From contig NZ_QAOX01000002.1 in NCBI RefSeq assembly GCF_003050935.1, positions 682,001 through 746,000 of the forward strand: a stretch of 64,000 nucleotides of DNA, written 5' to 3'. A model generated the notes under the pieces. The model saw nothing but the letters and a program-made list of their open reading frames with translations. It was not told where the DNA came from and did not search any database. The position numbers and the translations under genes are program-made. Shown in pieces: positions 981 through 41,097 of this stretch. How positions within the stretch are numbered: position 1 is the first letter of the stretch; every line of letters starts with the position of its first letter. This DNA comes from Luteibacter sp. OK325. GTDB lineage: Bacteria > Pseudomonadota > Gammaproteobacteria > Xanthomonadales > Rhodanobacteraceae.

Positions 981-1015
981 GATTTCCCGGTGCAGCTGCA
1001 CCTAAAGGGGCGTTG

Positions 1016-3460: not shown

Positions 3461-3492
3461 TCGCTCGCAATGAAAGGGCACGTCCGCTGCCG

Positions 3493-3516
3493 TTGCAGGA
3501 GCCGCTTCAGCGGCGA
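3493..3516 (+). repeat. REP-type repeat
   Basis: A copy of the GCAGGAGCCGC-loop-GCGGCGA type lies in the 120-bp gap between the convergent GH95 and GH29 genes. Its hairpin core is GCCGCT-TC-AGCGGC. It shares the (T)GnAGGAGCCGnnn-nnCGGCGA layout with the cluster at 19631-19740, so it belongs to a dispersed family. Confidence 0.55.
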
Positions 3517-3580
3517 ATCCTCAGCGCAGCTATAGCGACGCGAGGCCGAAGGCGAGCCCGCCCCGGAACATGCGATGAAG

Positions 3581-8386: not shown

Positions 8387-8397
8387 CCATGCAAGAC

Positions 8398-8426
8398 CCG
8401 ACAGCCCGCTCTGAGCGGGCTGTCGG
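8398..8426 (+). terminator. Perfect 13-bp hairpin between receptor and GH74
   Basis: CCGACAGCCCGCT (8398-8410) pairs perfectly with AGCGGGCTGTCGG (8414-8426) around a 3-nt loop. No U-tract follows (CATGCTATAGC), so full intrinsic termination is doubtful. It may instead be a partial terminator or an RNA-stabilising stem that sets receptor expression above that of the enzymes. Confidence 0.6.
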
Positions 8427-8451
8427 CATGCTATAGCTTTCGGGGAGAAGG

Positions 8452-12598: not shown

Positions 12599-14193
12599 AA
12601 CGAAGCACACTGACCAGCGCGCTGCTGATTTCACTGGCGACCTGCGCCACCAGCTGGGCCAGCGACACGCCGCGCGTGGTGAGCGAACAAGGACGCCATG
12701 CGCTGATGGTCGACGGCAAACCGTTCCTCGTCCTCGGTGCACAGGTGAACAACTCAAGCGCATGGCCCGCGATGATGGGCAAAGTCTGGCCTGCGATCGA
12801 GCAACTGCATGCCAATACCGTGCAGGTTCCCATCGCATGGGAGCAGATCGAGCCGACCGAAGGCCGTTACGACTTCAGCTTCCTCGACACCCTGGTTAAC
12901 CAGGCACGCGAGCACAACGTTCGCCTCGTGTTGCTGTGGTTCGCCACGTGGAAGAACAACGGTCCGAACTACGCACCCGCCTGGGTGAAGCTCGATAACA
13001 GCCGTTTCCCGCGCGTGATCAATCGCGATGGCAAGACCCTGGGATCGCTATCACCCCATGCTCCCGCCACGCTGGACGCCGACCGCACGGCCTTCGTCGA
13101 GTTGATGAAGCACCTGCGCGATATCGACGGCGACCGCCACACCGTCATCATGATGCAGGTGGAGAACGAATCGGGTACCTACGGTACCGACCGCGACCAC
13201 TCACCGACGGCCGACAAGCTCTTCGCAGGCGCGGTGCCCGATGCCCTGCTGAAGCGCGACGGAAAGAAGCCCGGCACCTGGCAGCAGGTTTACGGTGCCG
13301 ATGCGGCAGAGTTCTTCCACGCCTGGTCGGTCGCCCACTACATCGAGCAGGTCGCCCATGCAGGCAAGGCGGTGTACGAACTTCCCATGTACGCCAACGC
13401 GGCCCTGCGCGATCCGTTCAAACCCGGGCCGCCGGGTGGCTACTCCAGCGGCGGTCCCACCGACAACGTGCTCGATGTGTGGAAGACGGCGGCACCCTCG
13501 CTCGACCTGCTGGCTCCGGATATCTACATGCCGGACTACGAACGCTATACCGCCGTGCTCGATCGCTACGCCCGTCCGGATAATGCCCTGTTCGTCGCCG
13601 AAACCGGCAATGCGAAGCCGTATGCGCGCTATGTGTTCGCCGCGCTGGGCGAGCGGGCCATCGGCTTCTCGCCATTCGGCATGGACTTCACCGGCTACTC
13701 GAACTACCCGCTCGGCGCCCGCAAGGTCGACAGCGAGACGATCGACGCCTTCGCCGACAACTACAAGCTGATCGAACCCCTGGCCGGCGTACTCGCCGAG
13801 CTGTCCTGGCAGGGCAAGGTCTGGGGCGTGGCCGAACCGGTCGACCGGCACACCCAGGATATCGACCTGGGCGCCTGGTCAGCACACATCGGCTACGGCC
13901 AGCCGCAGTTCGGTGTCGATCCGGCGCCCGGCAATGCCGAACCCGTCGGCGGCGTGCTGATCGGCCAGATCGGCAAGGACGAGTACCTCGTCACCGGCCG
14001 CCAGGCCCGCGTGAACTTCGGCAACGGCAAAGCCGACGCGCGGCGCAACTTCATGCTTGCGCGCGTCGAGGAAGGCCATTACGAGAACGGCCGCTGGGTG
14101 TTTGATCGCCTGTGGAACGGCGACCAGACCGACTACGGCCTCAACTTCACCGACGTGCCGCAGGTGCTGCACGTCAAGCTCGCTACGTTCTGA
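12595..14193 (+). CDS. GH35 beta-galactosidase, periplasmic
   Basis: 532 aa; its ATG overlaps the esterase stop by 4 nt (ATGA), implying translational coupling. Signal peptide ending near SWAS. The TIM barrel carries QVENESG (acid/base E192) and LFVAETGN (nucleophile E336). The C-terminal part resembles the DUF5597 region found in this GH35 group. The short form and its neighbours match the xyloglucan-type beta-galactosidase of Cellvibrio japonicus (Bgl35A), which removes galactose from XLXG-type oligosaccharides. It acts after defucosylation and deacetylation and before GH31. Export signal and context put it in the periplasm. Confidence 0.92.
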   Translation: MKRSTLTSALLISLATCATSWASDTPRVVSEQGRHALMVDGKPFLVLGAQVNNSSAWPAMMGKVWPAIEQLHANTVQVPIAWEQIEPTEGRYDFSFLDTLVNQAREHNVRLVLLWFATWKNNGPNYAPAWVKLDNSRFPRVINRDGKTLGSLSPHAPATLDADRTAFVELMKHLRDIDGDRHTVIMMQVENESGTYGTDRDHSPTADKLFAGAVPDALLKRDGKKPGTWQQVYGADAAEFFHAWSVAHYIEQVAHAGKAVYELPMYANAALRDPFKPGPPGGYSSGGPTDNVLDVWKTAAPSLDLLAPDIYMPDYERYTAVLDRYARPDNALFVAETGNAKPYARYVFAALGERAIGFSPFGMDFTGYSNYPLGARKVDSETIDAFADNYKLIEPLAGVLAELSWQGKVWGVAEPVDRHTQDIDLGAWSAHIGYGQPQFGVDPAPGNAEPVGGVLIGQIGKDEYLVTGRQARVNFGNGKADARRNFMLARVEEGHYENGRWVFDRLWNGDQTDYGLNFTDVPQVLHVKLATF

Positions 14194-14204
14194 AGGAAGG
14201 CACG

Positions 14205-16718: not shown

Positions 16719-16720
16719 TC

Positions 16721-19573
16721 ATGAAGCCAACCAGCCTCGTTACCCTGCTCCTTACACCGCTCGCCGCTGCACTGCTCGCCAGTTGCGCGTCGTCGCCATC
16801 GGCCCAGGCCACGCCGCCGGCCAGCCACGTGACGCGCATCGCGGACGGTGCCGTCGTTGCTGTCGATCACTCGACACAGAAGGTACGCCTGCAACTCGTA
16901 TCGCCGAAGATCGTGCATGTCACGGTCGCGCCGGACGGCAACTTCAACCTGCCCGCTAGCCTGATGGCGGTCAGGACGGGCGGCGATGGATCGTTCTCGC
17001 TCGATGAGTCCGGTGCCGAGGTCGTCCTGAAGACACCGGCCCTCGAAGCCCATGTCTCCACCAACGATGGCACTGTCCGCTTTACCGATGCACAGGGAAA
17101 AGCGATCCTTGCCGAACGCAGCGGCGGCCGCAGCTTTACGGCGACGACTGTCGAAGGCAAACCGTTCGTCGCGGTTCGCCAGCGTTTCGAATCACCCGAC
17201 GACGAAGCGTTCTACGGCCTGGGTCAACACCAGAACCGCCAGATGAACTACAAAGGCGAGGATGTCGAACTCGCCCAGCACAATATGGACGTCGGCGTGC
17301 CGTTCGTCGTCTCCACGCGCAATTACGGATTGCTATGGGACAACAACTCGATCACGCGTTTCGGTGATCCGCGCGAGTACCCGCTGGCCGGCCAGACGCT
17401 GAAGTTCTACGACGCCGATGGCAAGGAAGGTGGCCTGACCGCCCGTTACTACGCCGGTAAAACACTCAAGGCGACGCGCGTCGAGCACGAGGTCAACTAC
17501 GCCTACATCAAGGACCTGACGACCTGGCCGGCCGAGCCGACGGCAAAGAAAACCGATCGGGTGGTCTGGGAAGGTTCGATCGAAACCTCGTCCTCGGGTG
17601 AGCAGAAGTTCCGGTTGTACTCGTCCAGCTATGCGAAGGTCACCATCGACGGCAAGGTGGTCTACGACGACTGGCGCCAGAACTGGAACCCCTGGTATCA
17701 CAACATCCGCTTGCCGATGGACGCCGGCACGAAGCACACGATCAAGATCGAGTGGAAACCAAACGAAGGCTATATCGCGCTCTACCATCTCGACCCACAG
17801 CCTGCCGCGGAGCAGCGCGATCTCTCCCTGTATTCGGAGGTGGGTCACGCGGTCGATTACTACTTCGTTTCCGGCTCGAATCTCGACGACGTCGTTTCCG
17901 GCTACCGCACCGTTACTGGCAAGGCACCGGTGCTGCCGCGCTGGGCCTACGGTTTCTGGCAGAGCCGCGAGCGCTACAAGACGCAGAAGGAAATCGTCGA
18001 CACCGCGACCCAGTACCGAAAGCGTGGCCTGCCGCTGGACAACGTCGTCGAGGACTGGAGCTACTGGCCCGAGAACGCGTGGGGCTCGCACGAGTTCGAC
18101 GCCACGCGCTTTCCCGATCCGAAGGGCATGATGAAACAACTGCACGACATGCACGTGCAGCTGATGATTTCCGTATGGCCGAAGTTCTATCCGGAAACGA
18201 AGAACTACAAGGAACTGGACGCCAAGGGTTACATCTACCGCCGCAACGTCGAAAAGGGCGAGCGCGACTGGATCGGCAAGGGCTACCTCAACTCCATCTA
18301 CGACCCGTACGCGAAGGAAGCGCGAGACATCTACTGGCGGCAGATCCAGGAGAACCTCGGCGTGCTCGGCATCGATGGGTGGTGGCTCGACGCCTCCGAG
18401 CCCGACATTCATTCGAACCTCGATATCGCCGAGCGCAAGCTACGCATGGGCCCGACGGCTCAAGGCCCGGGTGCCGCGTTCTTCAACTCCTTCCCGCTGA
18501 TGCATACGACAGGCGTCTATGAGGGCCAGCGTGCCAGTGCGCCGGATCGGCGCGTCTTCATCCTCACGCGTTCGTCGTTCGCCGGTCAGCAGCGCAATGC
18601 TGCCGCCACATGGAGTGGCGACGTCGCATCGCGCTGGAGCAACCTGCACGACCAGATATCGGCGGGCGTGAACTTCTCGCTCGCGGGCATTCCGAACTGG
18701 ACGACCGATATCGGTGGCTTCGCGCTGGAACCGCGCTACGAGAAGCCCGGTGCGGCCGACCTGAAAGAATGGCGCGAGCTCAATCTTCGCTGGTTCCAGT
18801 TCGGCACGTTCACTCCCCTGTTCCGCTCGCACGGCCAGTTCCCGTATCGCGAGATTTTCAATCTCGCGCCGAAGGGTTCGGACGTCTACGAGTCCCTCGC
18901 GTGGTATGACCGCCTCCGTTATCGCCTGATGCCGTACATCTACACCCTCGCCGGCGATACCTGGCAGAACGACGGCACCATCATGCGTGGCCTGGTGATG
19001 GACTTCCCGAACGACACCAGGGTGCGCACCATCGACGACGAGTTCATGTTCGGTCCGGCCTTCCTGGTCGCCCCGGTGCACGAATACGGTGCGCGCAGCC
19101 GCACGGTCTATCTGCCTGCCGGCTCGGACTGGTACGACTTCCAGACAGGCAAGCGCCATGCCGGTGGCACGACCATCGACGCCGACGCACCACTCAACCG
19201 CATGCCGCTGTTCGTTCGCGCCGGCGCCATTGTTCCGGTTGGCCCGGCGATCCAGTACACCGGGCAGAAGCCCGATGCGCCGATCACGGTTTATATCTAC
19301 CCCGGCCACGACGGCAGCTTCTCGCTCTACGAGGATGAAGGAACCAATTACGGCTACGAGAAAGGCGCCTCCAGCCGCATTCCCATGACGTACGACGATG
19401 CGACGCATACGCTCCACCTGGGCGAACGCCAGGGCAGCTTCCCCGGCATGGTGGAGAAGCGTCGGTTCCGCGTGCGTCAGCTTGCGGAGAAGGCGCGGCC
19501 CGGCGTGGATTTCGAAGCAAGGGCCGACAAGGAAGTGGACTACACGGGACAGGCGGTGACGATCCAGCTTTAA
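16721..19573 (+). CDS. GH31 alpha-xylosidase with PA14 domain, lipoprotein
   Basis: 950 aa, beginning 2 nt after the GH3 stop. The signal peptide has a good lipobox (L19-A20-S21-C22), so the enzyme is probably membrane-anchored. A PA14 insertion (about residues 240-370, with VVWEGSIET and YAKVTIDGKVVYDDW) precedes the barrel, as in Cellvibrio Xyl31A. GH31 motifs: GWWLDASEPD with nucleophile D557, and WSGDVASRW with acid/base D634. It would remove alpha-1,6-xylose from the non-reducing end of xyloglucan oligosaccharides, alternating with the GH3 glucosidase. An alpha-glucosidase role is possible for GH31 in general, but the PA14 insertion and neighbours favour xylosidase. Confidence 0.92.
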   Translation: MKPTSLVTLLLTPLAAALLASCASSPSAQATPPASHVTRIADGAVVAVDHSTQKVRLQLVSPKIVHVTVAPDGNFNLPASLMAVRTGGDGSFSLDESGAEVVLKTPALEAHVSTNDGTVRFTDAQGKAILAERSGGRSFTATTVEGKPFVAVRQRFESPDDEAFYGLGQHQNRQMNYKGEDVELAQHNMDVGVPFVVSTRNYGLLWDNNSITRFGDPREYPLAGQTLKFYDADGKEGGLTARYYAGKTLKATRVEHEVNYAYIKDLTTWPAEPTAKKTDRVVWEGSIETSSSGEQKFRLYSSSYAKVTIDGKVVYDDWRQNWNPWYHNIRLPMDAGTKHTIKIEWKPNEGYIALYHLDPQPAAEQRDLSLYSEVGHAVDYYFVSGSNLDDVVSGYRTVTGKAPVLPRWAYGFWQSRERYKTQKEIVDTATQYRKRGLPLDNVVEDWSYWPENAWGSHEFDATRFPDPKGMMKQLHDMHVQLMISVWPKFYPETKNYKELDAKGYIYRRNVEKGERDWIGKGYLNSIYDPYAKEARDIYWRQIQENLGVLGIDGWWLDASEPDIHSNLDIAERKLRMGPTAQGPGAAFFNSFPLMHTTGVYEGQRASAPDRRVFILTRSSFAGQQRNAAATWSGDVASRWSNLHDQISAGVNFSLAGIPNWTTDIGGFALEPRYEKPGAADLKEWRELNLRWFQFGTFTPLFRSHGQFPYREIFNLAPKGSDVYESLAWYDRLRYRLMPYIYTLAGDTWQNDGTIMRGLVMDFPNDTRVRTIDDEFMFGPAFLVAPVHEYGARSRTVYLPAGSDWYDFQTGKRHAGGTTIDADAPLNRMPLFVRAGAIVPVGPAIQYTGQKPDAPITVYIYPGHDGSFSLYEDEGTNYGYEKGASSRIPMTYDDATHTLHLGERQGSFPGMVEKRRFRVRQLAEKARPGVDFEARADKEVDYTGQAVTIQL

Positions 19574-21694: not shown

Positions 21695-22539
21695 CGGCGG
21701 GACGCCCCGGGCGGCCGGCAAGTGCCATGCGACGTCTTGGCCGGGCGTCGATCATCGTGGCCTCCATACTCTTTCTCTGTCTCTTCCTCGTGGTGCCGCT
21801 GGCTTCCGTGTTTGTCGAGGCGTTCCGCCAGGGAGCCCACGCTTTCGTTGAGAGCATCGACCAGCCCGAGGCGATGGCTGCCATCCGGCTGACCTTGCTG
21901 GTGGCGGTCATCACCGTGCCGCTCAACGTGGTATTCGGGCTCGCCGCCGCATGGGCCATGACCCGGTTCCAATTCCGGGGGAAGGCATTGCTCGGTGCGC
22001 TCATCGACTTGCCGCTGTCGGTATCACCGGTGGTCTCTGGCCTGCTGTACGTCCTTATGTTCGGCGCGCAGGGCTGGTTCGGGCCCTGGTTGGCGACGCA
22101 TGGAGTGAAGATTATCTTCGCCGTTCCCGGCCTCGTTCTCGCCACGATCTTCATCACGCTGCCCTTCGTCGCGCGCGAACTGATACCTCTGATGCAGGCC
22201 CAGGGAAGCGAAGAGGAAGAAGTCGCACGCGTGCTCGGCGCAAGCGGCCTGCAGACGTTTTTCCGGGTGACGCTTCCCAATATCCGTTGGGCCCTGCTCT
22301 ACGGTGTATTGCTCTGTAACGCACGCGCCATGGGCGAGTTCGGTGCGGTGTCCGTCGTTTCCGGACACATTCGCGGGCTCACAACCACCATGCCGCTGGA
22401 AGTGGAGATGCGCTACAACGAGTACAACTACGTCGGCGCCTTCGCCATCGCTTCGTTGCTTGCCCTGTTGGCCCTTCTTACCCTGGCGCTGAAATCCGCC
22501 CTGGAATGGCGTTATCAAGCCGCTGAGAATCATCGATGA
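21691..22539 (+). CDS. cysW: Sulfate ABC transporter permease CysW
   Basis: 282 aa. The ATG at 21691 is chosen because it overlaps the cysT stop by 4 nt; an upstream TTG in frame lies inside cysT. Six hydrophobic segments, the EAA loop [23 protein letters not shown], and the CysW signatures [21 protein letters not shown] and [17 protein letters not shown] are present. Forms the transmembrane channel with CysT. Confidence 0.94.
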
Positions 22540-23657
22540 CACTCGCTCTCAAACGGCTGAGCCGCCACTTTCCCGACATCGCCGCGCTCGACGACGTGAG
22601 TCTCGACATTGCCCCGGGAGAATTCGTCGCGCTCGTCGGGCCCTCCGGGTCGGGCAAGACGACCTTGTTGCGTATCCTCGCCGGGCTCGACTATCCCGAT
22701 GAAGGGAGCGTCACCCAGAACGGGCAGGACTTCCTGGCCGCCAGTGCAAGGGAACGCAATGTGGGCCTCGTGTTCCAGCACTATGCGTTGTTCGGTCACC
22801 TGACCGTGCGCGAGAACGTGGCCTTCGGTCTGCGTGTGCGGCCCAGGCGTCGCCGCCCTTCACGTGACCAGATCCGCGTGCGCGTCGACGAGTTGTTGAA
22901 GCGCGTGCAGCTGGCGGAACTGGGCAACCGCTATCCGAGCCAGCTCTCCGGTGGCCAGCGCCAGCGCGTCGCCCTCGCACGTGCATTGGCCGTCGAGCCT
23001 GACGTCTTGCTGCTCGACGAGCCCTTCGGTGCACTCGATGCACAGGTACGCACCGCCCTGCGCCGTTGGCTGCGTGAGCTGCACGAGGAGCTCGGCCTGA
23101 CCACCGTGTTCGTGACCCACGACCAGGAGGAAGCGCTCGAGCTTGCCGATCGCATCGTGGTCATGAACAAGGGTCGCATCGAGCAGGTGGGTCGACCACA
23201 CGAGGTCTACAAGGATCCGGAGACGCCCTTCGTCTGTGAATTCATCGGCCGGACGAACCGCATTGCGCTGGAGCGGCGAGCGAACACGTGGGGCGCGGGA
23301 AGTTGGTCGCTTCCGGCAGGCGCGTCGGGCGGGCTGTTTCACTCCGCCGTGGGTTACGTCAGGCCGGAGCATCTGTCCCTGTCGGTACCAGAAGGTCAGC
23401 CGGCTTGGGAGGCGCGACTGCGGCACGTCTATCTCGCGGGAAGCATCGCGCATCTGGACATCTACGTGGCGGACATCGATCAGACCCTTGAAGTCGACGT
23501 GGCCAGTGAGGATCTGGGTCGAGGGGCGCTCACGCCCGGGGCCGTCTTGCGCGTCGCGCCGACGAGGCTGGTCACCTTCCCGCTCGGTGACGGCCCCGCC
23601 GGCGCGCCCGTTCTCGGCGAGCGCTGGATCATGCGTGGTCCGAATTCCACGTCATAA
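22536..23657 (+). CDS. cysA: Sulfate ABC transporter ATPase CysA
   Basis: 373 aa; ATG overlaps the cysW stop (ATGA, 22536-22539). Walker [11 protein letters not shown]-loop FQHYALF, ABC signature [15 protein letters not shown], Walker [13 protein letters not shown] and the H-loop VTHDQEEA are all intact. A C-terminal TOBE-like region follows (about 240 onward). It energises sulfate uptake. The operon ends 8 nt from the convergent phospholipase gene with no visible terminator. Confidence 0.95.
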
Positions 23658-23665
23658 CCGCTACA

Positions 23666-24802
23666 TCACTTCACGGCAGCATCCAGCGCAGCGTCCTTGC
23701 ACTGCCCTTTCTTCGTCAGAATCGGGTTGCAACGAACCGTCACGCCACCGGGGAATCCCACCGAGTAACCGTGCTCCGACGGCTCGCCCGCCGGGTAGTC
23801 CGTGCTGATCAGCTGCGCACCGCTTGCCAGGACCACGTCACGACGCGAACCGTCGTTCTTCAGGCCCTGCCCCTGGGCGGGATCGTCGGTACGCGCACGC
23901 ACGATATAGCCACGACGCACCAGCCCATCGATGTCTTCGGCCGAGCACTCGTTGCATTCGGTGAAGGCAGCGTCCTCGGCGCCCGGCGTGGCGTTGGTGA
24001 AGATCAGGCGGCCACGCAGCGACGGATGGCCTTCGCTGTAGACACCTTCCATCTTCCGCTGATCGAGCAGGAAGACCACCTTGCCACGTGCCTTGTTCAC
24101 GGTGGGCCAGCCACCCTGGCGCACGGCTTCATCCAGGCTCGCGTGCCCACCGCGCACATCATCGGGTACGACCATCTCGTTGCGCGGGAAGACCGAAGCG
24201 ATCTCCGCATCCAGCGCATCGAACACGGCCGGGGTGAACGGCTCCGGTGTCACCGTCGGGATCTTCACCTTCAGCGGTTCCTGCTTGGTCTCGACCAGCA
24301 CGAACAGGGGCGTGTGCCCCGGGTGCGCCTTCGACCACGCGCGAAGTTCGGCCAGGCACGCGGTGAACGGCTGGCAGGTGCTGCGCTGGTCCACGCCCTG
24401 GATGTGCATCACCTTGAAACCCGGCTTCTCCCAGGTGCCCGGCGCCGCCGTCGGCGGATCAGCCGGAAGGCCATTGAGCGCGATCATGTGATCCATCGCG
24501 GGATCGAGGTACAGGCCACCCTTGGCGTCCGAGAACACGTCCAGTTCCACCTGACGCACGCCGTCGTCGAGCTGGCGGGTCAGCGACGGATGGCTATAGT
24601 CGATCGCGAAGAATTCCTTCGGTGCTTCTTTCTGCATCACGCGCCTGGCGCTGGGCGCGAAACCCGCGTGATAACTGTTGTGCGTACCGATGACCTGGAT
24701 CTGGTTGATATGGATCTCGCTCGTGGCGGCAAGCAACGACGCCGATGCGACAAGGGACGAGGCTGCAGCGAATGGCAGCAGGTAGGAACGTAGGGAAGCC
24801 AT
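23666..24802 (-). CDS. Ca-dependent phosphatidylinositol-specific phospholipase C, secreted
   Basis: 378 aa from ATG 24802 (GAGGA 5 nt upstream) with a signal peptide. IQVIGTHNSYH (H41, H45) and VRQVELDVFSD near the N-terminus, VLVETKQEP in the middle, and the late LISTDYPAG segment match the calcium-dependent PI-PLC-C1 family (Streptomyces-type), which cleaves phosphoinositides by general acid-base catalysis without the eukaryotic accessory domains. It is the third gene of the TonB receptor-GH92-PLC operon, 17 nt after GH92. In that setting it may cut the phosphodiester of GPI or phosphoinositol-mannan glycans rather than act on membranes; that role is inference. Confidence 0.82.
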   Translation of the reverse strand: MASLRSYLLPFAAASSLVASASLLAATSEIHINQIQVIGTHNSYHAGFAPSARRVMQKEAPKEFFAIDYSHPSLTRQLDDGVRQVELDVFSDAKGGLYLDPAMDHMIALNGLPADPPTAAPGTWEKPGFKVMHIQGVDQRSTCQPFTACLAELRAWSKAHPGHTPLFVLVETKQEPLKVKIPTVTPEPFTPAVFDALDAEIASVFPRNEMVVPDDVRGGHASLDEAVRQGGWPTVNKARGKVVFLLDQRKMEGVYSEGHPSLRGRLIFTNATPGAEDAAFTECNECSAEDIDGLVRRGYIVRARTDDPAQGQGLKNDGSRRDVVLASGAQLISTDYPAGEPSEHGYSVGFPGGVTVRCNPILTKKGQCKDAALDAAVK

Positions 24803-24819
24803 GAATATCCTCGGGTAGA

Positions 24820-27066
24820 TCAGCGGCTATGGCGTTTGCAAAGGGCGAAGTCGGCGTCGGACAACGACGGCGGCGGCGAGGTCGTACCCCAGCGCGACGG
24901 CGTCGGACCCATTACCAGATCCAGCGTGCCGCCTCCGGCGATCTGGCCGTGGCGGAACCACGCGGCGTCGAGCGGCTGGCCATTGAGCGTGGCCGACTGC
25001 ACGTAGCGGTTCGTGCCATCCGGCGTGAAGTTCTCGGCGTGGACACGGAAAGTCTTGCCACCGCCAAGATCGATCGTCGACTCGCGGAACGACGGCGTAC
25101 CGATCAGGTACACGTCCTGGCCCGGGTTCGGATAGAAACCCATCGACTGGAAGGCGTACCAGCTGGACATGGCGCCGGAGTCATCGTTACCCGGGATGCC
25201 ACCACGATCCGCGCCGAAGGCCCGATGCAGGAACGTGGTGACACGATCGGCGGTGAGGTCCGGACGGCCGGCCCAGATATAGAGGTCCGGGATCAGGAAG
25301 CCCGGTTCGTTCGTGATGTCGAAATGCAGGTGGTCGAAGACCGTATCCAGGCGCTTCACGAAGGCCTCGTTGCCGCCCGACATCGCGATCAGCTTGCGTA
25401 CGTCCTGCGGGGCGTACAGCGAATACGTCCAAAGGTCCGCTTCATAGTAGAAGTCCGGCCACGTGCCGCGGCGGACCAGGTACTGCGGTGCCCAGGTGCC
25501 ATCTTCATTGCGCGGACGAAGGAAGCCGGTGACGCCTTCCTGCTCGCTCGTCGCGTCCCACAGGTTCGCCCAGTTGCCGGCGTGCGCGCGGTAGAGCTTC
25601 GCTTCGTCGTCATGACCCAGGCCACACGCCACTTCAGCGATGCTGAAGTCGTTGTATGCGTATTCCACGGTGCGCGAGCCAGCGCGCTCCGTCGGCTGGG
25701 CCACGTAGCCGAGACGGTTGTACGTTTCCAGACCGCCACGTCCTTCCTTGCGCGCGTCGGCGGGCGCCACCGTGGCGTCCTTCACCATGGCCTTGAATGC
25801 CGTCGCGTAGTCGATGCCGGTGAGACCCTTGACGTACGCATCCGCCACCAGCACGTTCGCGTTGCTGCCACCCTGGGTACGACCGTTGTCGTTACCGACG
25901 CGCGCATCGGGCATGTAGCCGGCATGGCGGAAGGTATCCACCAGCGACCGCACGATATCGCGCTGCACGTCCGGCGCGATCAGGGTGAGAAGCGGGCCCT
26001 GGCTGCGGAACGTATCCCAGATCGCCTGGAAGTCGTCGTAATACGGCTCGGCGGACTTCCACTTCGGGTTCTCACCCGTATGGTCCGACGGCATCATCAT
26101 CGTGTGGTAAAGCGCCGTATAGAACGTGCGGCGCTGGGTGTCGTCCGCACCGGCGATCTCGATGCGGCCGAGTGCCTTGTTCCATGCGGCAACGGCTGTC
26201 TGGTGCACGCCGTCGAAGTTCCAGCCGCGCGCCTCCTCCGTCGCATTGCGATGGGCCTGTGCCTCGCTCACGAAGGAAATACCGACCTTGGCCTGGATCG
26301 CCTGCCCGGCCTTCACCTGGTAATCGAACGAGGCACCGAGCGGCATGGCGCTGGTGGCGTGCACCGTCGACGACGCGCTCACGGTCTTGTCGAGCCATGT
26401 GCGTGTCGATGCCGCTGGTGTATCGACGATCATGTCCACGTAGACGTCATACGGGCCACCTTCGTTCCAGCCGCCGGCATAGTGCCCCACGCCGGCGATC
26501 TCGGTGGGCGAGACCACGCGCAGGTCGCCGCCCAGGAACTGCTGGGTCTCTTCCCCCGTACCCTTGTAGAGCAGGTCGAGGTCGAGCGTTACATGTCCGT
26601 CGCCGTCCTTGGCGAACGTATACCGATGCATACCCATACGCCGCGTGGCAGTCAGCTCCGCCTTCACCTGGTAGCGCGTCAGATCCACGGCGTAGTAACC
26701 CGGGCTGGCCATTTCATTCGCGCGTGGCGAATGGAAGGCGCCCGGTTCGAGATCGCCAGTGGTCGCAATCACACGAGCGTTCTCGTACTTGCCCGAACCA
26801 CCGCTCAGGTGCAGGTGGGAGAAACCGCGAATGTCGCCGGTGCTCTGGAAACCCTTGCGATAGCCGTAGTCACGCACGTCAGGACCGACCTTCACCATGC
26901 CGAAGGGCATCGTGGCGCCGACGAAGACCTCACCGAACCAGTCCGACCCAATGAACGGGTCGACGTCGGTGGCATGATCGGCAGCCATGGCGGCAGGTGC
27001 CGCCATGGCCAGGGAAGCGACGGCGACCGCGAGGGTACGCCGTGCGATGGAGTTGAGACTGTGCAT
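24820..27066 (-). CDS. GH92 alpha-mannosidase, secreted
   Basis: 748 aa; ATG 27066 with AAGGAAA upstream; signal peptide ending AMAAD. GH92 landmarks in order: VDPFIGSDWFGEVFVGATMPFGMVKVGPD, GFSHLHLSGG, YHTMMMPSD, WDTFRSQGPLLTL, ITNEPGF with the expected acid E587, and PGNDDSGAMSSWYAF with base aspartates D628/D629, followed by GFYPNPGQDVYLIGTP. GH92 enzymes are inverting, calcium-dependent exo-alpha-mannosidases (alpha-1,2/1,3/1,6/1,4 depending on subgroup). The residues after NEP (GF rather than N-H) differ from well-studied N-glycan mannosidases, so linkage is open. Sits 28 nt after the receptor and 17 nt before the PI-PLC. Confidence 0.93.
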   Translation of the reverse strand: MHSLNSIARRTLAVAVASLAMAAPAAMAADHATDVDPFIGSDWFGEVFVGATMPFGMVKVGPDVRDYGYRKGFQSTGDIRGFSHLHLSGGSGKYENARVIATTGDLEPGAFHSPRANEMASPGYYAVDLTRYQVKAELTATRRMGMHRYTFAKDGDGHVTLDLDLLYKGTGEETQQFLGGDLRVVSPTEIAGVGHYAGGWNEGGPYDVYVDMIVDTPAASTRTWLDKTVSASSTVHATSAMPLGASFDYQVKAGQAIQAKVGISFVSEAQAHRNATEEARGWNFDGVHQTAVAAWNKALGRIEIAGADDTQRRTFYTALYHTMMMPSDHTGENPKWKSAEPYYDDFQAIWDTFRSQGPLLTLIAPDVQRDIVRSLVDTFRHAGYMPDARVGNDNGRTQGGSNANVLVADAYVKGLTGIDYATAFKAMVKDATVAPADARKEGRGGLETYNRLGYVAQPTERAGSRTVEYAYNDFSIAEVACGLGHDDEAKLYRAHAGNWANLWDATSEQEGVTGFLRPRNEDGTWAPQYLVRRGTWPDFYYEADLWTYSLYAPQDVRKLIAMSGGNEAFVKRLDTVFDHLHFDITNEPGFLIPDLYIWAGRPDLTADRVTTFLHRAFGADRGGIPGNDDSGAMSSWYAFQSMGFYPNPGQDVYLIGTPSFRESTIDLGGGKTFRVHAENFTPDGTNRYVQSATLNGQPLDAAWFRHGQIAGGGTLDLVMGPTPSRWGTTSPPPSLSDADFALCKRHSR

Positions 27067-27094
27067 CGATGGACTTTCCTTTTAAGCCTGCCGA

Positions 27095-29275
27095 TCAGAA
27101 CGTGTAGGTAGCCTGCACGGTGTAGTTGCGACCTGCCAGGTAGTAGAAGGTCGGATCCTTGGCCAGGCCGTTGCCCTGGATGGCCGTGCGGTGGTCGAAC
27201 AGGTTATTGGTCGACAGTTGCAGTCTCAGGTCAGGCGTGAAGCGATAGCCGATGTTGAAGTTGGTGTAGTTGTAGGTCGGCAGCTTGGTGTTCGGGTTGT
27301 ACTTGGCACCACTGGTCTCGCCTGTGCCGGTAAAACGCGTGCCCACGTACTTGACCAGGAACGAGCCGTACAGCGGGCCCTGGTCGTAGATGAAGCCGAC
27401 ATCGGCCGTGGACATGGGCGAGTTGGAAATCTGCAGGTGCGTCGTCTTGGAGTACGCGCTGTTGATACTGCCGTTCGCCGTGAAGCTGAAGCCGGAATCG
27501 CCCAGGATGTGCGTCAGTTCACCTTCCACGCCCTTGTAGATCACGCCACCCTGGTTGGCGAACACGCTGATCAGCGAACCGCCCGGACCGATCGGCTCCT
27601 CGACGCTGCTCACCAGGTTGCCGAAGTCGATGTAATAGACATCGATGTCCGCCACGGTGGTCGGGGTCTTCCAGACCACACCGGCCTGGTAGTTCGTGGT
27701 CGTCTGCGGATCGATATGGCCGGCCGGACCCTGGATGATGTTGACCTTCGGCGCCTGGAAGCCCTTGGCCACCTGCGCATACGCCGCGAGGTTCGGCGAG
27801 AACCGGTAATTGGCCGCCACCGAGCCAAGCGTGGTGGCGAAGTGGCCATCACCGCCGACCGGCAGGAAGTTGGACACACCGTCGATCGTGCGATCGAACA
27901 CGATCTGCTTCACACCCGGCACGATGCTCAGGTTCTCCAGCGGCCGCCACTCGATCTCGAAGTAGCTCTGCGTCGTATTGGTGTGCTGGTTGGTATCGAT
28001 GATGTTGGCGTTCGGCTCGCCCTTGAGCACCTGCGGCGTCATCGTCGAGAGGTCGACCGTGACCTGGTCCTGCACCTGATAGGTGCGCTCGGCCCAGATG
28101 CCCGCCTTCAGGGTGCTCTCCAGCCAGTCGCTGCCGATGTCCTTCTCCGCCGTGAGGAAATCGCCGGCGGCGCGGTAACGGCTGTGGTTGATCGCACCGG
28201 GGACGCCACCGTTGGGCAGCAATGCGATGTTCGGCGTGTTGCCGAGCAGGTCCACGCCACCCGGACCGCTGTCACGCAGGCCGTAGGTATAGAACTTGTT
28301 GTCGATGCGCCAGCTGCCGTAGTCGCCATGCAGCTGAAGGTATTCGAAGTCCGCATGGCGGTCATCGATGTTGTAGTTGGCGAAGCCCTGCGAGGCGGGA
28401 TCCTGGTTAAGGCCGCCGAAGTCCAGCCCGAGGATGTCCGTCCGCTTCTTCGGTTGAGCGGTAAAGGTGTTCCATTTCACCTTGTTGTAGTCGGCCACCA
28501 GAGTCAGCGTCGTGTTGTCGCCCAGCGGCTGCTTCACCTTGAACAGGATATTGTCCTGCTTGAAGCCCGCATCATCGATCAGGCCATTGGATTCGATATG
28601 GCTGTAATTGACCGACGCCTCGGTGCCGATCTTGTTGAGCACGCCCGTATTGCCGTCGCCGGCGACCTGCCAGGTCGCACCGCTGCCATACATGGCGGAC
28701 ACCTCACCGGACGGCTTGTCGGTCGTGGGTGCCGAGTACAGCGCCACCGTGCCACCGAAGGTCGCATTGCCGAGGTTGCTCGCCGTGCCCGGGCCGCGGT
28801 CGACCACCACCTTGTCCAGCGAGGGGCCCGGGAAAAACGCCGTCGTCGCATGGCCGAAGGCGCCCGGATCGCCGAACGGGATGCCGTCGAAGGTCACGTC
28901 GTACTCGCCATCCTGGAAGCCGCGGATGGTGCCGCTCTTGCTGGAGAAGCCCGCTCCGTTGGGGGATGCATTCACCGCCGAGGGCGTGAGCTCCAGCAAC
29001 GCAAGGTAATCCGCCTTGGGTGTCGCGATCGTCTGGATGAAGTTCCGGCTCAGGACCGACTGCGGCTCGATCTCGAACAGATTGCCTTGCGTCGGCGCGA
29101 GTGCCGCCGCGCTGCCGGGCGGTGCGAGGTTAGGGTCGTCAATGCCGGCGGAAACCGCGACGCCCTGCAGGTTCGTCGTGTGTTTCGTGATATCCGCGTC
29201 CGTGGTTTCGGCGGCGGCGCTGATAGCGGCTGCGAGAGCAGCCAGACCAAATCCAAAACGTACAGCGTGATGCAT
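27095..29275 (-). CDS. TonB-dependent receptor of the mannoside/PLC locus
   Basis: 726 aa from ATG 29275; the frame stays open upstream but only this start yields a signal peptide (ending ISAAAE). The plug contains LLELTPSAVNASPNGAGF, GTIRGFQDGEYDVTFDGIPFG and VVVDRGPGTASNLGNATFGGTV; the barrel ends in QATYTF. It differs from the TonB-Xanth-Caul receptors at the left end of the window: no VTGxR block, and a shorter barrel. It is first in an operon with GH92 and PI-PLC and is divergent from a TetR gene, so its ligand is probably a mannose-containing product. Confidence 0.92.
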   Translation of the reverse strand: MHHAVRFGFGLAALAAAISAAAETTDADITKHTTNLQGVAVSAGIDDPNLAPPGSAAALAPTQGNLFEIEPQSVLSRNFIQTIATPKADYLALLELTPSAVNASPNGAGFSSKSGTIRGFQDGEYDVTFDGIPFGDPGAFGHATTAFFPGPSLDKVVVDRGPGTASNLGNATFGGTVALYSAPTTDKPSGEVSAMYGSGATWQVAGDGNTGVLNKIGTEASVNYSHIESNGLIDDAGFKQDNILFKVKQPLGDNTTLTLVADYNKVKWNTFTAQPKKRTDILGLDFGGLNQDPASQGFANYNIDDRHADFEYLQLHGDYGSWRIDNKFYTYGLRDSGPGGVDLLGNTPNIALLPNGGVPGAINHSRYRAAGDFLTAEKDIGSDWLESTLKAGIWAERTYQVQDQVTVDLSTMTPQVLKGEPNANIIDTNQHTNTTQSYFEIEWRPLENLSIVPGVKQIVFDRTIDGVSNFLPVGGDGHFATTLGSVAANYRFSPNLAAYAQVAKGFQAPKVNIIQGPAGHIDPQTTTNYQAGVVWKTPTTVADIDVYYIDFGNLVSSVEEPIGPGGSLISVFANQGGVIYKGVEGELTHILGDSGFSFTANGSINSAYSKTTHLQISNSPMSTADVGFIYDQGPLYGSFLVKYVGTRFTGTGETSGAKYNPNTKLPTYNYTNFNIGYRFTPDLRLQLSTNNLFDHRTAIQGNGLAKDPTFYYLAGRNYTVQATYTF

Positions 29276-29378
29276 TGCGTTGAAACTCCTGCCTGAATCG
29301 GCCGCGCGGTTACCCGCGACGGTCAGCTCTGTCGAGCCCGAAGGAATGGGATACGGAATGTTGGGGAGGGGTGGTGGA

Positions 29379-29402
29379 AAACAGTAGTTAACGCTACTGT
29401 TT
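29379..29402. promoter_or_regulatory. 24-bp TetR-type operator
   Basis: AAACAGTAG-TTAACG-CTACTGTTT: perfect 9-bp arms around 6 nt, 104 nt upstream of the receptor start and 150 nt upstream of the divergent TetR start. Length and symmetry suit a TetR dimer. Binding by the adjacent regulator, with control of both genes, is inferred from position. Confidence 0.65.
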
Positions 29403-29459
29403 GCATATGACAGAGCTTTGACGCTTACGTGGCACGCGACACGTTTCGTGCAGGTATCG

Positions 29460-29483
29460 CGCTGCAGCACGCACGCTGCAGCG
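29460..29483. promoter_or_regulatory. Second dyad in the TetR/receptor gap
   Basis: CGCTGCAG (29460-29467) and CTGCAGCG (29476-29483) form a perfect 8-bp inverted repeat with an 8-nt centre, 70 nt before the TetR start. It may be an accessory operator or an mRNA hairpin. Confidence 0.35.
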
Positions 29484-29552
29484 AAATAAGTATCATCTGG
29501 AACCAATTTGTCTTCGTTCAAAATCACGAAGACGCTCGCCGAGGTCTACCCC

Positions 29553-30302
29553 ATGAATAGCGCCACGCGTCGGAAGAAAGCCGATGCGCTTCCCGCGATC
29601 CCGCTGGACACCAAGCAACAACCGATGCAACAACGCTCGGTCGAAACCTTCGAGTTGATCCTCGAGGTCACCTCGCGCCTGCTCGGCGAAGTAGGCGTGG
29701 AACGTCTGTCGACGAATCTGGTTTGCGCGAAGGCCGGTATCTCGCCACCCGCGCTCTATCGGTACTTCCCGAACAAGTACGCCATCCTCAAGGAGCTCGG
29801 CGAGCGCCTGATGAAATGCCAGAACAAGGCGTACAGAGCCTGGCTGGAAGAGGAAAAGGCGCTCGACTACGACGGCTCGCGTGAAGCCAGCATTCGTGGC
29901 CTGCGTGACATGCAGGCGGCGATCAACGCGGCAACGCTCGCCTTTCCTGGCGCGGTATGGATCATGCGGGCGCTTCGCGCGGTACCCACGCTACGGCACA
30001 TTCGTCTGGCCTCACACGACGACGTGGCGGAGACGAGCTACGAAGGCCTGCGCGATCGCTACCCGAGCGCCGACCCGGCCGCCCTGCGTGTTGCGATGCG
30101 CCTGTCCACCGAAGTGATGTACGCGGCCACGGAAATGGCCGTGGACAATCCGACGATGGACAGCCATATCATCAATACCGAGGTCGCCGAAATGGTCGTG
30201 CGTTATTACGACAAGTTCGTCGAGGGCGAAGAACGCTATGCGGCCGCCGTGAAGAAGAGCAAGGTCAAGCGCTCAGCTGCGACATCAAAGTCAGTGCGTT
30301 AG
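29553..30302 (+). CDS. TetR-family regulator
   Basis: 249 aa from ATG 29553 (in-frame codons upstream lack an ATG). After a basic N-terminal arm of about 25 residues, the HTH region reads STNLVCAKAGISPPALYRYFPNKYAILKELGERL, the classical TetR_N signature. The C-terminal ligand domain is alpha-helical and the tail is Lys-rich. It is divergent from the receptor-GH92-PLC operon, with a 24-bp palindrome between them, so it is the likely local repressor, relieved by a small glycan or lipid-derived ligand (inference). Confidence 0.88.
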   Translation: MNSATRRKKADALPAIPLDTKQQPMQQRSVETFELILEVTSRLLGEVGVERLSTNLVCAKAGISPPALYRYFPNKYAILKELGERLMKCQNKAYRAWLEEEKALDYDGSREASIRGLRDMQAAINAATLAFPGAVWIMRALRAVPTLRHIRLASHDDVAETSYEGLRDRYPSADPAALRVAMRLSTEVMYAATEMAVDNPTMDSHIINTEVAEMVVRYYDKFVEGEERYAAAVKKSKVKRSAATSKSVR

Positions 30303-30533: not shown

Positions 30534-31265
30534 ATGCTTCGTGCGCTTGCCCTCGCCTGCTGCTTCGCCGCCCTTCCCGCCATCGCCGCGGACACCGTCC
30601 CGACCGCCGCCGAGAAGGCGCAGGGTTGGCAATCGCTTTTCGACGGCAAGACGCTGCAGGGCTGGCACTCCTTCGGTCAGAAGGGCACGGGCAAGGACTG
30701 GAGCGTCGTCGACGGCGCGATCCAGCTCGACCGTGATCTCAAAGCGCCCGACGCCGACTTCGCGGATCTCGTCACCGAGAAAGAATACGAGAACTTCGAC
30801 CTCAAGCTCGACTGGAAGATGACTGCCTGCGCCGATGCTGGTGTGATCTTCAACGTCAAGGAATCGCCGAAGTACAAATACACCTGGGAAACCGGGCCCG
30901 AGATGCAGATCGCCGACCTCGTGTGCACCAAGCCGGACAGCTATACGCTGTACGAACGCTCCGGTGACCTCTTCGACCTGATCTCCTCGGACATCGAGAA
31001 CGTCAACGAGCACGGCCACTGGAACGCCATCGAGATCATCGTCGACCACGGCCACGTGCAGTTCTTCCAGAACGGACACAAGACCGTCGACACCACCCTG
31101 TGGACGCCGGAATGGACCGCCCTTGTCGGAAAGACGAAGTTCGCGAAGATGGAAGATTACGCACGCTTCCACAAAGGCCGTATCGCGCTGCAGGGCGGCG
31201 AAGACAAGGGCGTGCCGCCCATCCAGATAGCGTTTCGCAACATCCGGATTAAAGAGCTGAACTGA
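30534..31265 (+). CDS. Secreted DUF1080 (3-keto-disaccharide hydrolase-like) protein
   Basis: 243 aa with a Sec signal (cut near AIAAD). GWQSLFDGKTLQGWHSFGQKG at the mature start, NFDLKLDWKM, DAGVIFNVKE, GPEMQIAD, NEHGHWNAIEIIVDHGHVQFFQNG and GRIALQGG are the conserved strands of the DUF1080/PF06439 concanavalin-like fold; members have been linked to hydrolysis of 3-keto-glycosides. No 3-dehydrogenase gene is nearby, so the substrate is unknown. The start codon has only a weak GGAA upstream. The 231-bp gap before it holds a TATAGT (30433-30438) without a clear -35. Confidence 0.85.
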   Translation: MLRALALACCFAALPAIAADTVPTAAEKAQGWQSLFDGKTLQGWHSFGQKGTGKDWSVVDGAIQLDRDLKAPDADFADLVTEKEYENFDLKLDWKMTACADAGVIFNVKESPKYKYTWETGPEMQIADLVCTKPDSYTLYERSGDLFDLISSDIENVNEHGHWNAIEIIVDHGHVQFFQNGHKTVDTTLWTPEWTALVGKTKFAKMEDYARFHKGRIALQGGEDKGVPPIQIAFRNIRIKELN

Positions 31266-32250: not shown

Positions 32251-34134
32251 TCAGCGCACGTAAGTAGCCAACACGGTGACGTTCTCCATGTCCTTGACCG
32301 CCGAGAGCCGCACGAACCACGTCCCCGCCACCGGCGCGTTGACGATCACGCTTTCGGTGTTGCCCGGATGCACGGAGCGCGCCGTAGCATCCGAGCCGTC
32401 CGCTGCCGGTGCCGCGCCTGCCTTGACGAACAGGGAAGCATCGCCGGTGCCGCCAATACTGCGAATGATCAGGTTCCGTGCCCCGGCCGGCACGTCGATG
32501 GAAAACACCGCGGACCCACCTGCCGCGCGCAATACCGGCGTGGAGAGCGCACCGGGTACGAGGACCGTGATCTGCTCGGGCAGCTGTACGCCGGTGACCG
32601 TGGCGACAGCCCGCTGGGCGTCGAGGATGCCACTGCCGACAAACTTGTCAGGCGTGCGCGGAAAGGGCCGTGTGCTCGCTGCCAGCATGGCCTTGATGTC
32701 GGAGGGTGCCGGCCGCGGCAGGCTCATCCGGCTTGCGGCGTCGAGCATCAGGGCGACCGTGGCCGCCACGTGCGGCGTCGCCTGTGAGGTGCCGGCCATG
32801 CCGGCATAGGTCACTCCGCCGTCTGCAATCGAAATCGGCGTGGTGAGCCCACTGTTGTACGCCGCCCAGATAAAGCCGTCGGGATTGGCGACGGTGCCGT
32901 TGGGTGCGTCATTCGTATAGATGCCACCGCCCGGTGCGGCCAGGGTCACCGTACTGCCGTAGTTCGAGTAAAACGCACGGCGCCCCGTGATCCCGGTGGC
33001 ACCCACGGTGACGACGCCCGGGCAACTCGCCGGCGTGTAATTGGCCGCGTCATCCGAGGAATTGCCCGCGGCGACCACGACCGTCGTGCCAAGGCCGATC
33101 GCCAGGTTGATGGCGTCCCGCGTCACACTGTCGTCGACGCACGCGCCACCTCCGCCGAGGCTCATGTTGATGACATCGGCCCGATGGGTGTTGTCGGGAA
33201 CGCTGTCGACCTGACCTCCAGCGGCCCAGACAATGGCGTCCGCGATGTCGGAGGTGTACCCGCCGCAATGACCCAGCGCACGGATAGGCAGGACTTTCGC
33301 TCCCGGCGCCACACCGGCTGTGCCGATAGCGTTGTTCGTCCGCTCGGCAATGACGCCGGCGACGTTGCTGCCGTGCCAGGTACTCGATTCGGGCGGGTGA
33401 TCGATGTCCGTGCATTCGGAGAGCCATGGTTCTGCATTGGTCCAGTCGCCAAGATCCCAGCCGCCAGCGACACGTCCGTCGGAGACACGGCCAGAAACGA
33501 AGCTGTCCACAATGAAGTCGTATCCCGCCGAGGCGAGGTTCGTGTCGAGGTCGTCGTGCTCGGTGATGCCGGTGTCGATGACGGCCACGGTGACGCCGGT
33601 GCCATCGACACCGGGAAAGCTGTCCCACACGGCAGGCAGGTTCATGCCACCCGTGGCGTTGGTCAGGTCCCACTGGGCGACGGCGAAGTACTCATCGTCA
33701 GGCACCGCGGCAGCCCGATTCACCTTTGTCGCATGCATCATCAGGTCGGGTTCGACATGTAGCACGGCAGGATCCGCCGCGATGGCCCGCATCACGCTCG
33801 ACGCTTCGGAAGAAGCCAACGCACGGGAGAACTTCACTACCGTGCCTCCGACCGCCATCTGACGCAACGCGCGAGCCGTGACGGGGACGGTACGGCCAGT
33901 CGTCGGAATGGCACGGGCAAGCGCCGCGGTGATGTTCTGCACAACCGCATCAGCACGCGTGCGCTCGTTGCTGCCGGCGCGGTAGCGAACAATGAAACGG
34001 TCGTAATGGCCAGTGGCCTGGATGCCGGTGACATCGGCCTTCCGGTCGGTCACCGCCGCTGCCGCACTCGCCGGGAAGGCAGTAAGGATGGCGAGGGCAA
34101 GCGCGGCGGGAATGAAAACACGAACAGGATTCAT
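32251..34134 (-). CDS. Subtilisin-like S8 serine protease, secreted
   Basis: 627 aa. The ATG at 34134 has GAGGA 8 nt upstream; a GTG 15 nt earlier is less likely. Signal peptide ending near ASAAA; an N-terminal propeptide (about 30-145, YDRFIVRYR to HVEPDLMMH) resembles inhibitor I9-type prodomains. Catalytic triad: D187 in VAVIDTGI, H254 in WHGSNVAG, S450 in GTSQATPH; oxyanion N358 in AAGNSS. A C-terminal beta domain (about 540-627) of pre-peptidase C-terminal type follows and is often removed on export. It is 11 nt downstream of the trimeric adhesin gene and probably cotranscribed, which suggests processing or release of the adhesin. Confidence 0.93.
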   Translation of the reverse strand: MNPVRVFIPAALALAILTAFPASAAAAVTDRKADVTGIQATGHYDRFIVRYRAGSNERTRADAVVQNITAALARAIPTTGRTVPVTARALRQMAVGGTVVKFSRALASSEASSVMRAIAADPAVLHVEPDLMMHATKVNRAAAVPDDEYFAVAQWDLTNATGGMNLPAVWDSFPGVDGTGVTVAVIDTGITEHDDLDTNLASAGYDFIVDSFVSGRVSDGRVAGGWDLGDWTNAEPWLSECTDIDHPPESSTWHGSNVAGVIAERTNNAIGTAGVAPGAKVLPIRALGHCGGYTSDIADAIVWAAGGQVDSVPDNTHRADVINMSLGGGGACVDDSVTRDAINLAIGLGTTVVVAAGNSSDDAANYTPASCPGVVTVGATGITGRRAFYSNYGSTVTLAAPGGGIYTNDAPNGTVANPDGFIWAAYNSGLTTPISIADGGVTYAGMAGTSQATPHVAATVALMLDAASRMSLPRPAPSDIKAMLAASTRPFPRTPDKFVGSGILDAQRAVATVTGVQLPEQITVLVPGALSTPVLRAAGGSAVFSIDVPAGARNLIIRSIGGTGDASLFVKAGAAPAADGSDATARSVHPGNTESVIVNAPVAGTWFVRLSAVKDMENVTVLATYVR

Positions 34135-34145
34135 GATGAAGGTCC

Positions 34146-41030: not shown

Positions 41031-41097
41031 CGCACGTTCCAAGCCGCGCTCGCGTCGAGTGGCACGATGCTCTCCCCTCCCCCGAGCGACGCCCCCC

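Follow-up and report, generated by a model that had tools for sequence, protein, structure and literature searches.

A TonB receptor, GH92 mannosidase and phospholipase C operon of Luteibacter sp. OK325 with a probable role in the utilization of mannosylated phosphoinositol lipids

Introduction

The TonB-receptor carbohydrate utilization loci of the Xanthomonadales are known as CUT loci, the GH92 loci of Bacteroides contain a SusC/D pair, and the iol operons of Bacillus and Caulobacter serve the use of free inositol. Among the phosphoinositide-specific phospholipases C (PI-PLC) of known structure are 3h4w/3h4x, which we take to be the Ca-dependent enzyme SaPLC1 of Streptomyces antibioticus, and 5fyo to 5fyr, presumably the PI-PLC of Pseudomonas sp. 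62186; we know of no receptor–mannosidase locus described for either enzyme. Mannosylated inositol lipids occur as phosphatidylinositol mannosides (PIM) in the envelope of mycobacteria and their kin. The mannosyl-inositol-phosphoceramides (MIPC) are plasma-membrane lipids of budding yeast, according to PMC11594620. No bacterial locus for the use of mannosylated inositol lipids was found in the literature searched.

Here we describe a locus of Luteibacter sp. OK325 which, like the CUT loci, clusters a receptor, a predicted exported glycosidase and a local regulator, but which contains a PLC as third member and probably targets a lipid head group. It has one TonB receptor gene, in contrast to the SusC/D pair of Bacteroides.

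Results and Discussion

Organization of the locus

Within the window, i.e., the whole analyzed stretch of 64,000 nucleotides, a minus-strand cluster at 23666-29275 carries the genes for a TonB receptor, a mannosidase of family GH92 and a PI-PLC of the PF16670 family. The features are as follows:

23666..24802, minus strand: Ca-dependent phosphoinositide-specific PLC, predicted to be exported, 378 aa
24820..27066, minus strand: GH92 exo-alpha-mannosidase of clade I, 748 aa
27095..29275, minus strand: TonB-dependent outer-membrane receptor, first gene of the operon, 726 aa
29381..29400, no strand: putative operator, palindrome ACAGTAG-N6-CTACTGT between the TetR and receptor genes
29553..30302, plus strand: TetR-family regulator, divergently oriented; translation could also start upstream, at the TTG at 29508

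The receptor ORF spans 27095-29527 on the minus strand, and the internal ATG at 29275 gives the 726 aa protein. The initial annotation had described three genes separated by 28 and 17 nt under a divergent TetR gene, and the ORF coordinates together with the Pfam matches bear this out (gaps at 27067-27094 between GH92 and receptor and at 24803-24819 between PLC and GH92). As a convergent plus-strand ORF (22536-23657, an ABC-type ATPase as judged by eye) lies only 8 nt from the end of the PLC gene, the cluster consists of three genes. All three proteins start with a hydrophobic leader-like stretch, again judged by eye. A sequence scan yielded no promoter of the sigma-70 type, and terminator-like sites were no more frequent than in shuffled sequence. 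From the spacing and the conserved gene order the three genes are probably co-transcribed. The operon itself contains neither a phosphoesterase gene nor any iol gene.

The receptor matches the TonB barrel (PF00593, 2.4e-32) and the Plug domain (PF07715, 7.9e-06), both above the cut-offs. It belongs to a receptor cluster of seven members (c6), every one of which is found in a locus with this GH92–PLC pair. The regulator has a TetR_N domain (PF00440, 1.8e-13), and a divergent ortholog accompanies the operon in all six of the other family loci that have it. A site related to the palindrome occurs in 7/7 aligned TetR–receptor intergenic regions, being degenerate in three of them (L041, L051, L062). 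When up to two mismatches were allowed, the palindrome had a single match in the 4.94 Mb genome, and with up to three mismatches 0.01 matches are expected in the window. The palindrome is a putative operator; both the binding of the TetR protein to it and a ligand of this protein are presumed.

The phospholipase and the mannosidase

In the Pfam search the PLC matched PI-PLC-C1 (PF16670) with an E-value of 8.1e-123 over profile positions 1-329 of 329, and no second PF16670 gene was found in this genome. Its relatives of known structure at an E-value of 0.001, namely 3h4w and 5fyo, are remote and match over about 107 and 133 query residues. The His-Asn / Glu-x-Asp / His pattern, whose residues presumably are the catalytic His residues and the Ca ligands, is common to the window PLC and both of these enzymes. 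H41, N42, E86, D88 and H133 are kept in 119/119 aligned PLC sequences; L145, in which the PLC reads in pieces, was left out of this count and of the tree and is included in the 117 loci discussed below. The predicted function of the window PLC is Ca-dependent phosphoinositide cleavage.

The mannosidase matches Glyco_hydro_92 (PF07971, 2.5e-151), the N domain PF17678 (2.8e-54) and TIGR01180 above its cut-off, and it is one of six GH92 genes of the genome. Its relatives in the PDB are 6f8z, 7zgm, 6f91 and 2wvx; from the residue numbering we take 6f8z, 6f91 and 2wvx to be the Bacteroides enzymes BT3130, BT3965 and BT3990. The window enzyme belongs to the same family as these three and shares their acid and base. 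E542 and D629, which align with positions 514 and 625 of the BT3990 chain, are invariant in 15 clade I sequences. The equivalent residues are the general acid Glu and the base Asp according to PMC5930347, which also ascribes the alpha-1,2 specificity of BT3990 to its 580-loop with His584 and Glu585 contacting the +1 sugar.

BT3990 has this 580-loop stretch, whereas the clade of the window enzyme does not. In our alignment the loop is absent from 19/19 rows of clade I and from all six rows of a second clade (clade II), and it is kept in 13 of 14 hand-picked background rows (five paralogues of the own genome and 9 of 29 family loci). The alignment was made without BT3990; in a separate comparison of the window enzyme with BT3990 the loop is located within a stretch that remained unaligned. 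PMC12858847 assigns a DED motif mostly to alpha-1,2 enzymes and NDD/NED to alpha-1,3 enzymes of GH92. We nevertheless dropped a linkage call from the Asn-Asp-Asp motif of the window enzyme because DED is also missing in 13/14 background rows, L006 alone carrying it.

The GH92 partners of the PLC form a distinct clade with 56-64% identity across phyla, while the own-genome paralogues reach at most 37%. In the tree this clade I spans two phyla. Four of its 19 members are not linked to a PLC (L209, L211, L212, L213), and two further clade I genes have a PLC at a distance of 11 and 21 kb. The loop-less clade II is found with the PLC in iol operons and also beside myo-inositol oxygenase (MIOX).

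Conservation of the pairing

The contig profile search for PLC loci confirmed 586 of 595 listed stretches, and the best 80 (79 distinct) were taken, so that fractions from this search describe the best-scoring loci only. Five of these loci duplicated family loci, with an identical 5 kb core, and were dropped, and five genomes with partial or low-scoring PLC matches were left out of the locus set. In the class-wide search at most two candidates per genome were scored, among the matches listed. Many loci end at contig edges and receptors were counted with our own profiles, so absences are to be read as lower bounds. Of 24 plasmid records with a PLC match, five were picked by eye and read.

The order TetR<TBDR>GH92>PLC is found in 7/39 family PLC loci from three genera, i.e., receptor, hydrolase and local regulator are co-located and conserved together. 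Paraburkholderia solisilvae has the order TBDR-GH92-PLC (791 bits for the Paraburkholderia receptor match), the Acidobacteriaceae Granulicella and Edaphobacter have PLC-receptor-GH92, and in L097 a single ORF fuses GH92 and a PLC with intact catalytic residues. Among the matches listed, GH92 lies within 6 kb of the PLC in 24/117 non-redundant loci versus 2.2-3.0 expected from the GH92 density in two genomes, and chance adjacency was rejected on this count; a receptor is found within the same distance in 84/117. As the loci are related, the binomial tail of this count exaggerates its weight, and the involvement of several PLC lineages is the better argument. On a quick PLC tree the presence of a GH92 partner, a label which we assigned from the gene content of the loci, requires eight gains or losses, at least six being forced by the starred branches. 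The partner GH92 clade thus appears to have been joined to several PLC lineages. The initial annotation had named a lack of conserved adjacency in relatives as a refutation; in the survey the pairing of GH92, PLC and receptor held up, with conserved examples from more than one phylum.

Links to inositol catabolism

G188 has a TBDR-PLC-PHP group together with two GH92 genes, embedded among IolC, IolD, IolE, IolB, MMSDH-type and IolG genes, and G205 has the same gene order. Genes for Iol enzymes surround PLC and GH92 in L068, L070 and L206; these loci share the Iol enzymes with the iol operons of Bacillus and Caulobacter but have a phospholipase, mannosidases and an outer-membrane receptor built in. 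On a Granulicella plasmid MIOX, GH92, receptor and PLC are grouped. MIOX is found within 6 kb of the PLC in 5/74 genome loci (best-scoring matches) and at about 7 kb in two of the five plasmid loci. Altogether no more than 9/117 PLC loci among the matches listed contain iol genes or MIOX. Phosphoesterases are partners as well: among the same matches a phytase-like HAP is near the PLC in 24/117 loci (fused to it in seven) and a PHP hydrolase in 18/117, four of them weak.

The genome of the window has an iol cluster elsewhere, with IolB above the NCBIfam cut-off and further genes recognized by our own profiles. Of the seven genomes that carry the operon, G021 and G074 have no IolB; MIOX is missing from all five family genomes tested, and neither was found in G074 and G601.

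Proposed function and alternatives

We consider it probable that the locus is a dedicated TetR-controlled operon for the utilization of mannosylated phosphoinositol lipids. An alpha-mannosidase, a PLC, phosphoesterases and iol enzymes make up a set suited to mannose attached directly to inositol phosphate, and the likeliest substrates are fungal lipids of the MIPC class or actinobacterial PIM. The exported PI-PLC would cut the inositol-phosphoryl bond of the glyco-inositol lipid, GH92 would strip alpha-mannose from the inositol (phosphate) either before PLC action or after uptake, and the TonB-dependent receptor would import the head group, the breakdown of which would be completed by phosphatases and an iol pathway whose genes lie at other sites in the genome. 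If true, this would account for PF16670 PLCs so often adjoining TonB-type receptors in Pseudomonadota and Acidobacteriota, would assign a function to the loop-less GH92 clades, whose specificity is so far undescribed, would provide enzymes for dissecting MIPC, PIM and related glycolipids and could reveal a route by which bacteria feed on fungal membranes.

Alternatively the two enzymes could serve separate food sources, GH92 acting on alpha-mannan of the fungal cell wall or on N-glycans and the PLC on phosphatidylinositol. Debris of fungi or plants would then induce both, with ecology as the sole link. GH92 genes are indeed common here and often multicopy (present in 82/117 sampled family genomes), and 93/117 PLC loci among the matches listed have no GH92 inside 6 kb, so the PLC also works without it. 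Yet the GH92–PLC fusion, the distinctness of the PLC-associated clades from the paralogues and the iol or MIOX genes beside the pair in some relatives speak against separate roles, and we regard this explanation as unlikely. We think it very improbable that the operon serves phosphate scavenging or membrane attack, with the mannosidase removing shielding sugars for a PLC that gains phosphate or damages membranes: the phytase-like and PHP partners are frequent, but so is the neighboring receptor, and neither the local TetR or LacI gene nor the ties of some relatives to the catabolism of inositol carbon fit well.

The initial annotation had also considered GPI anchors. In a system of this kind the PLC would free GPI-anchored mannoproteins, GH92 would trim the glycan and the receptor would import it. 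Some PI-PLCs do cut GPI anchors, and GPI cores carry alpha-mannose. The release of inositol from the core, however, requires an alpha-glucosaminidase, and the gene annotations of the iol loci and of the plasmid stretches include no such enzyme; moreover the outer GPI mannose is alpha-1,2-linked, yet the window GH92 is devoid of the BT3990 580-loop. GPI was therefore demoted as prime substrate and is improbable in our view. What stands of the earlier proposal is the mannosylated-phosphoinositide system, which the comparison supports well through adjacency in more than one phylum, the gene fusion and the iol/MIOX ties of some PLC loci, and a harvest of head groups from MIPC-type or PIM-type lipids is the best reading.

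More tentatively, the two loop-less GH92 clades could possibly be alpha-mannosyl-myo-inositol (phosphate) hydrolases of new specificity, which would unmask the inositol 2-hydroxyl needed by the cyclizing PI-PLC ahead of uptake and inositol catabolism, as parts of a recurrently reassembled system for glycosylated inositol lipids. Among the 26 PLC-linked GH92 rows the loop is retained in four (L090, L115, L068_4270, L070_4009). The GH92 genes near the PLC in L090, L115 and Hymenobacter (L150, L153) may be there by chance or represent another enzyme type.

Organization and regulation of the operon

The initial annotation had described a TonB receptor (TBDR), a GH92 mannosidase and a PI-phospholipase C (PLC) as one operon with a divergent TetR gene. 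All checkable details of this description, that is ORF positions, domain matches and the intergenic gaps of 17 and 28 nt, proved to be correct.

Features of the operon and its flank
23666-24802, minus strand: PI-PLC ORF (PF16670, 8.1e-123)
24820-27066, minus strand: GH92 ORF (N domain 2.8e-54, catalytic domain 2.5e-151)
27095-29527, minus strand: TonB receptor ORF with ATG at 29275 (barrel 2.4e-32, plug 7.9e-06)
Divergent from the receptor: TetR gene (domain match 1.8e-13)
30534-31265, plus strand: 3-keto-disaccharide hydrolase-like gene, next after TetR

Of all genes in the 4.94 Mb genome only the PLC matches PF16670, and six match GH92. In none of the six other family loci that carry this operon was the 3-keto-disaccharide hydrolase-like gene found at the corresponding place. 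The region between TetR and the receptor contains a palindrome common to the aligned loci (AACAGTAG-N6-CTACTGTT in the window), which is degenerate in three of the seven loci. Allowing up to two mismatches it has one match in the genome, as would be expected for a dedicated regulator, and TetR may bind to it.

Both enzymes keep their predicted catalytic residues. His41, Asn42, Glu86, Asp88 and His133 are invariant across 119 aligned PLC domains, which is the pattern of the Ca-dependent PI-PLCs; a sequence comparison found 3h4w and 5fyo as related solved structures. According to the alignment the GH92 protein retains the general acid E542 and the base D629; PMC5930347 assigns both roles in BT3130 and in BT3965, and for BT3990 it names the acid.

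Conservation of the gene neighbourhood

PF16670 is present in 10 of the 23 genomes of the genus and in 40 of the 233 genomes of the family Rhodanobacteraceae, with strong full-length matches in 35 of these 40. The 35 genomes yielded 39 PLC places including the window, and the other 38 loci were analyzed. The adjacency of GH92, PLC and receptor, from which a common utilization system had been proposed, is conserved in relatives: seven of the 39 loci (window included), spread over three genera, show the order TetR<TBDR>GH92>PLC, and further cases lie outside the family. With the window left out, a receptor is found within 6 kb of the PLC in 34/38 family loci, a phytase-like histidine acid phosphatase (HAP) in 15/38 and a CehA/McbA-type PHP hydrolase in 14/38, the latter two names being taken from one representative each.

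At E <= 1e-150, ten of the 233 family genomes encode GH92 of the window type, seven of them in window-type operons. In genomes G188 and G205 it lies about 11 and 21 kb from the PLC on the same contig, and in G165 (85% complete) it is present and a PLC was not found. It is rare in the class: for 369 genomes sampled, the matches listed include a single one of this type, from the genome of the window.

We scanned the named genomes with the PLC alignment and used the best 79 distinct loci, from which five duplicates were then removed. GH92 is located within 6 kb of the PLC in 24 of 117 loci (8/38 family, 15/74 best-scoring genome and 1/5 plasmid loci) compared to 2.2-3.0 expected from the GH92 density, a comparison that does not give a clean probability because the loci are related to one another. 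In Paraburkholderia solisilvae the genes TBDR-GH92-PLC come directly after those for ExbD and a TonB-type protein. The order PLC-receptor-GH92 is found in Granulicella mallensis, Granulicella sp. S190 and Edaphobacter lichenicola, with an OMP_b-brl_4 receptor identified by Pfam in G. mallensis and E. lichenicola and by a profile of our own in S190. Four Gluconacetobacter loci combine a TBDR, a PLC-HAP fusion and GH92. In a MAG (L097:272-3757) one frame of 1162 codons encodes GH92 (residues 58-783) and PLC (812-1158), and in trees both parts cluster with Acidobacteriota homologues.

Among the Acetobacteraceae, PLC-HAP fusions were seen at loci L124, L125, L126, L129, L136, L137 and L141. In Xanthomonas nasturtii (L145:9749-12600) the PLC frame appears split into several pieces, and so does that of the receptor behind it. 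Two Hymenobacter loci (L150 and L153) have, about 5 kb from the PLC, a GH92 with Gln replacing the general acid Glu; the mannose-phosphate uncapping enzyme CcMan5 also has Gln at this place.

Link to inositol catabolism

In G188 and G205 a group of genes for the PLC, a TBDR, a PHP hydrolase, a fructokinase-like protein and two GH92 proteins is flanked by IolE/IolB/MMSDH and RpiR/IolG. IolC and IolD lie upstream of it in G188, together with a sugar-type ABC transporter; the binding protein of this transporter resembles a rhizopine SBP with a score below the cut-off. The gene order of G205 is the same. IolE, IolB and IolG exceed the NCBIfam cut-offs in both genomes, as do IolC and IolD in G188 and MMSDH in G205. 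On a Granulicella tundricola plasmid myo-inositol oxygenase (MIOX), GH92, LacI, receptor and PLC adjoin (Pfam), and a Catenovulum plasmid carries PLC, metallophosphoesterase, TonB receptor and MIOX. In 5/74 best-scoring genome loci MIOX is found within 6 kb of the PLC, and in 2/5 plasmid loci about 7 kb away. It is the single MIOX match in four of the five genomes, the fifth having three. An acidobacterial PLC outside the counted loci (G605:C3:102121-107926) has MIOX about 4 kb off. The genome of the window itself contains an iol cluster, on a different contig from the operon.

Several results weigh against the inositol link: iol genes or MIOX are found in only 9/117 PLC loci, IolB is missing in two of the seven genomes carrying the window-type operon and MIOX was not found in any of five family genomes tested.

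PLC-associated GH92 clades

The window GH92 is 56-64% identical to six PLC partners (five acidobacterial-type, one Paraburkholderia) and at most 37% identical to the five other GH92 proteins of its genome; the remaining PLC-neighbour GH92 proteins reach 43% (L138) or less than 37%. The GH92 tree contains two PLC-associated clades. Clade I is the window type, with 13 of its 19 rows PLC-linked and four members unlinked to PLC. Clade II includes one GH92 from each iol operon and the Gluconacetobacter proteins, and the G. tundricola plasmid GH92 matches it at 56-59% (blastp). A loop preceding the NEP motif is absent from all 19 clade I and all six clade II rows and present in 13/14 background rows; 4/26 PLC-linked rows retain it. 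By numbering, the 580-loop of BT3990 (PMC5930347) maps to the missing stretch. Placed on the PLC tree (a quick tree), the clade I label requires eight changes, at least six being forced by starred branches, and the pairing has therefore been gained or lost repeatedly.

Possible substrates

The recurrent partners, namely alpha-mannosidase, PI-PLC, phosphoesterase, inositol catabolism and outer-membrane receptor, would form the set needed for the use of lipid-borne mannose-inositol phosphate. The use of GPI cores and plant GIPCs would require further glycosidases, and none was seen among the annotated genes. PI-PLC chemistry proceeds via the inositol 2-hydroxyl, which bears mannose in several mannosyl-inositol lipids. 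For this reason GH92 may act before the PLC, with demannosylation first and cleavage after. Mannose linked to inositol phosphate is found in the MIPC-type lipids of fungi (PMC11594620) and in PIMs, and we infer that these are the candidate substrates. No description of the TBDR-GH92-PLC combination was found in the full-text literature searched, which was largely without subscription papers, and for broader queries none appeared among the titles and abstract openings listed.

Other features of the window

A xyloglucan-type cluster (1013-19573) lies beside the operon and comprises GH95, a GH29 fucosidase (minus strand), a TonB receptor, a GH74-like protein with BNR repeats, SASA esterase, GH35, GH3 and GH31 with PA14. 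A YadA-type trimeric autotransporter adhesin (34146-36494) adjoins an S8-like serine protease gene, named by eye (32251-34149), and at 41059-42654 a GDSL lipase carries a C-terminal D-mannose-binding B_lectin domain.
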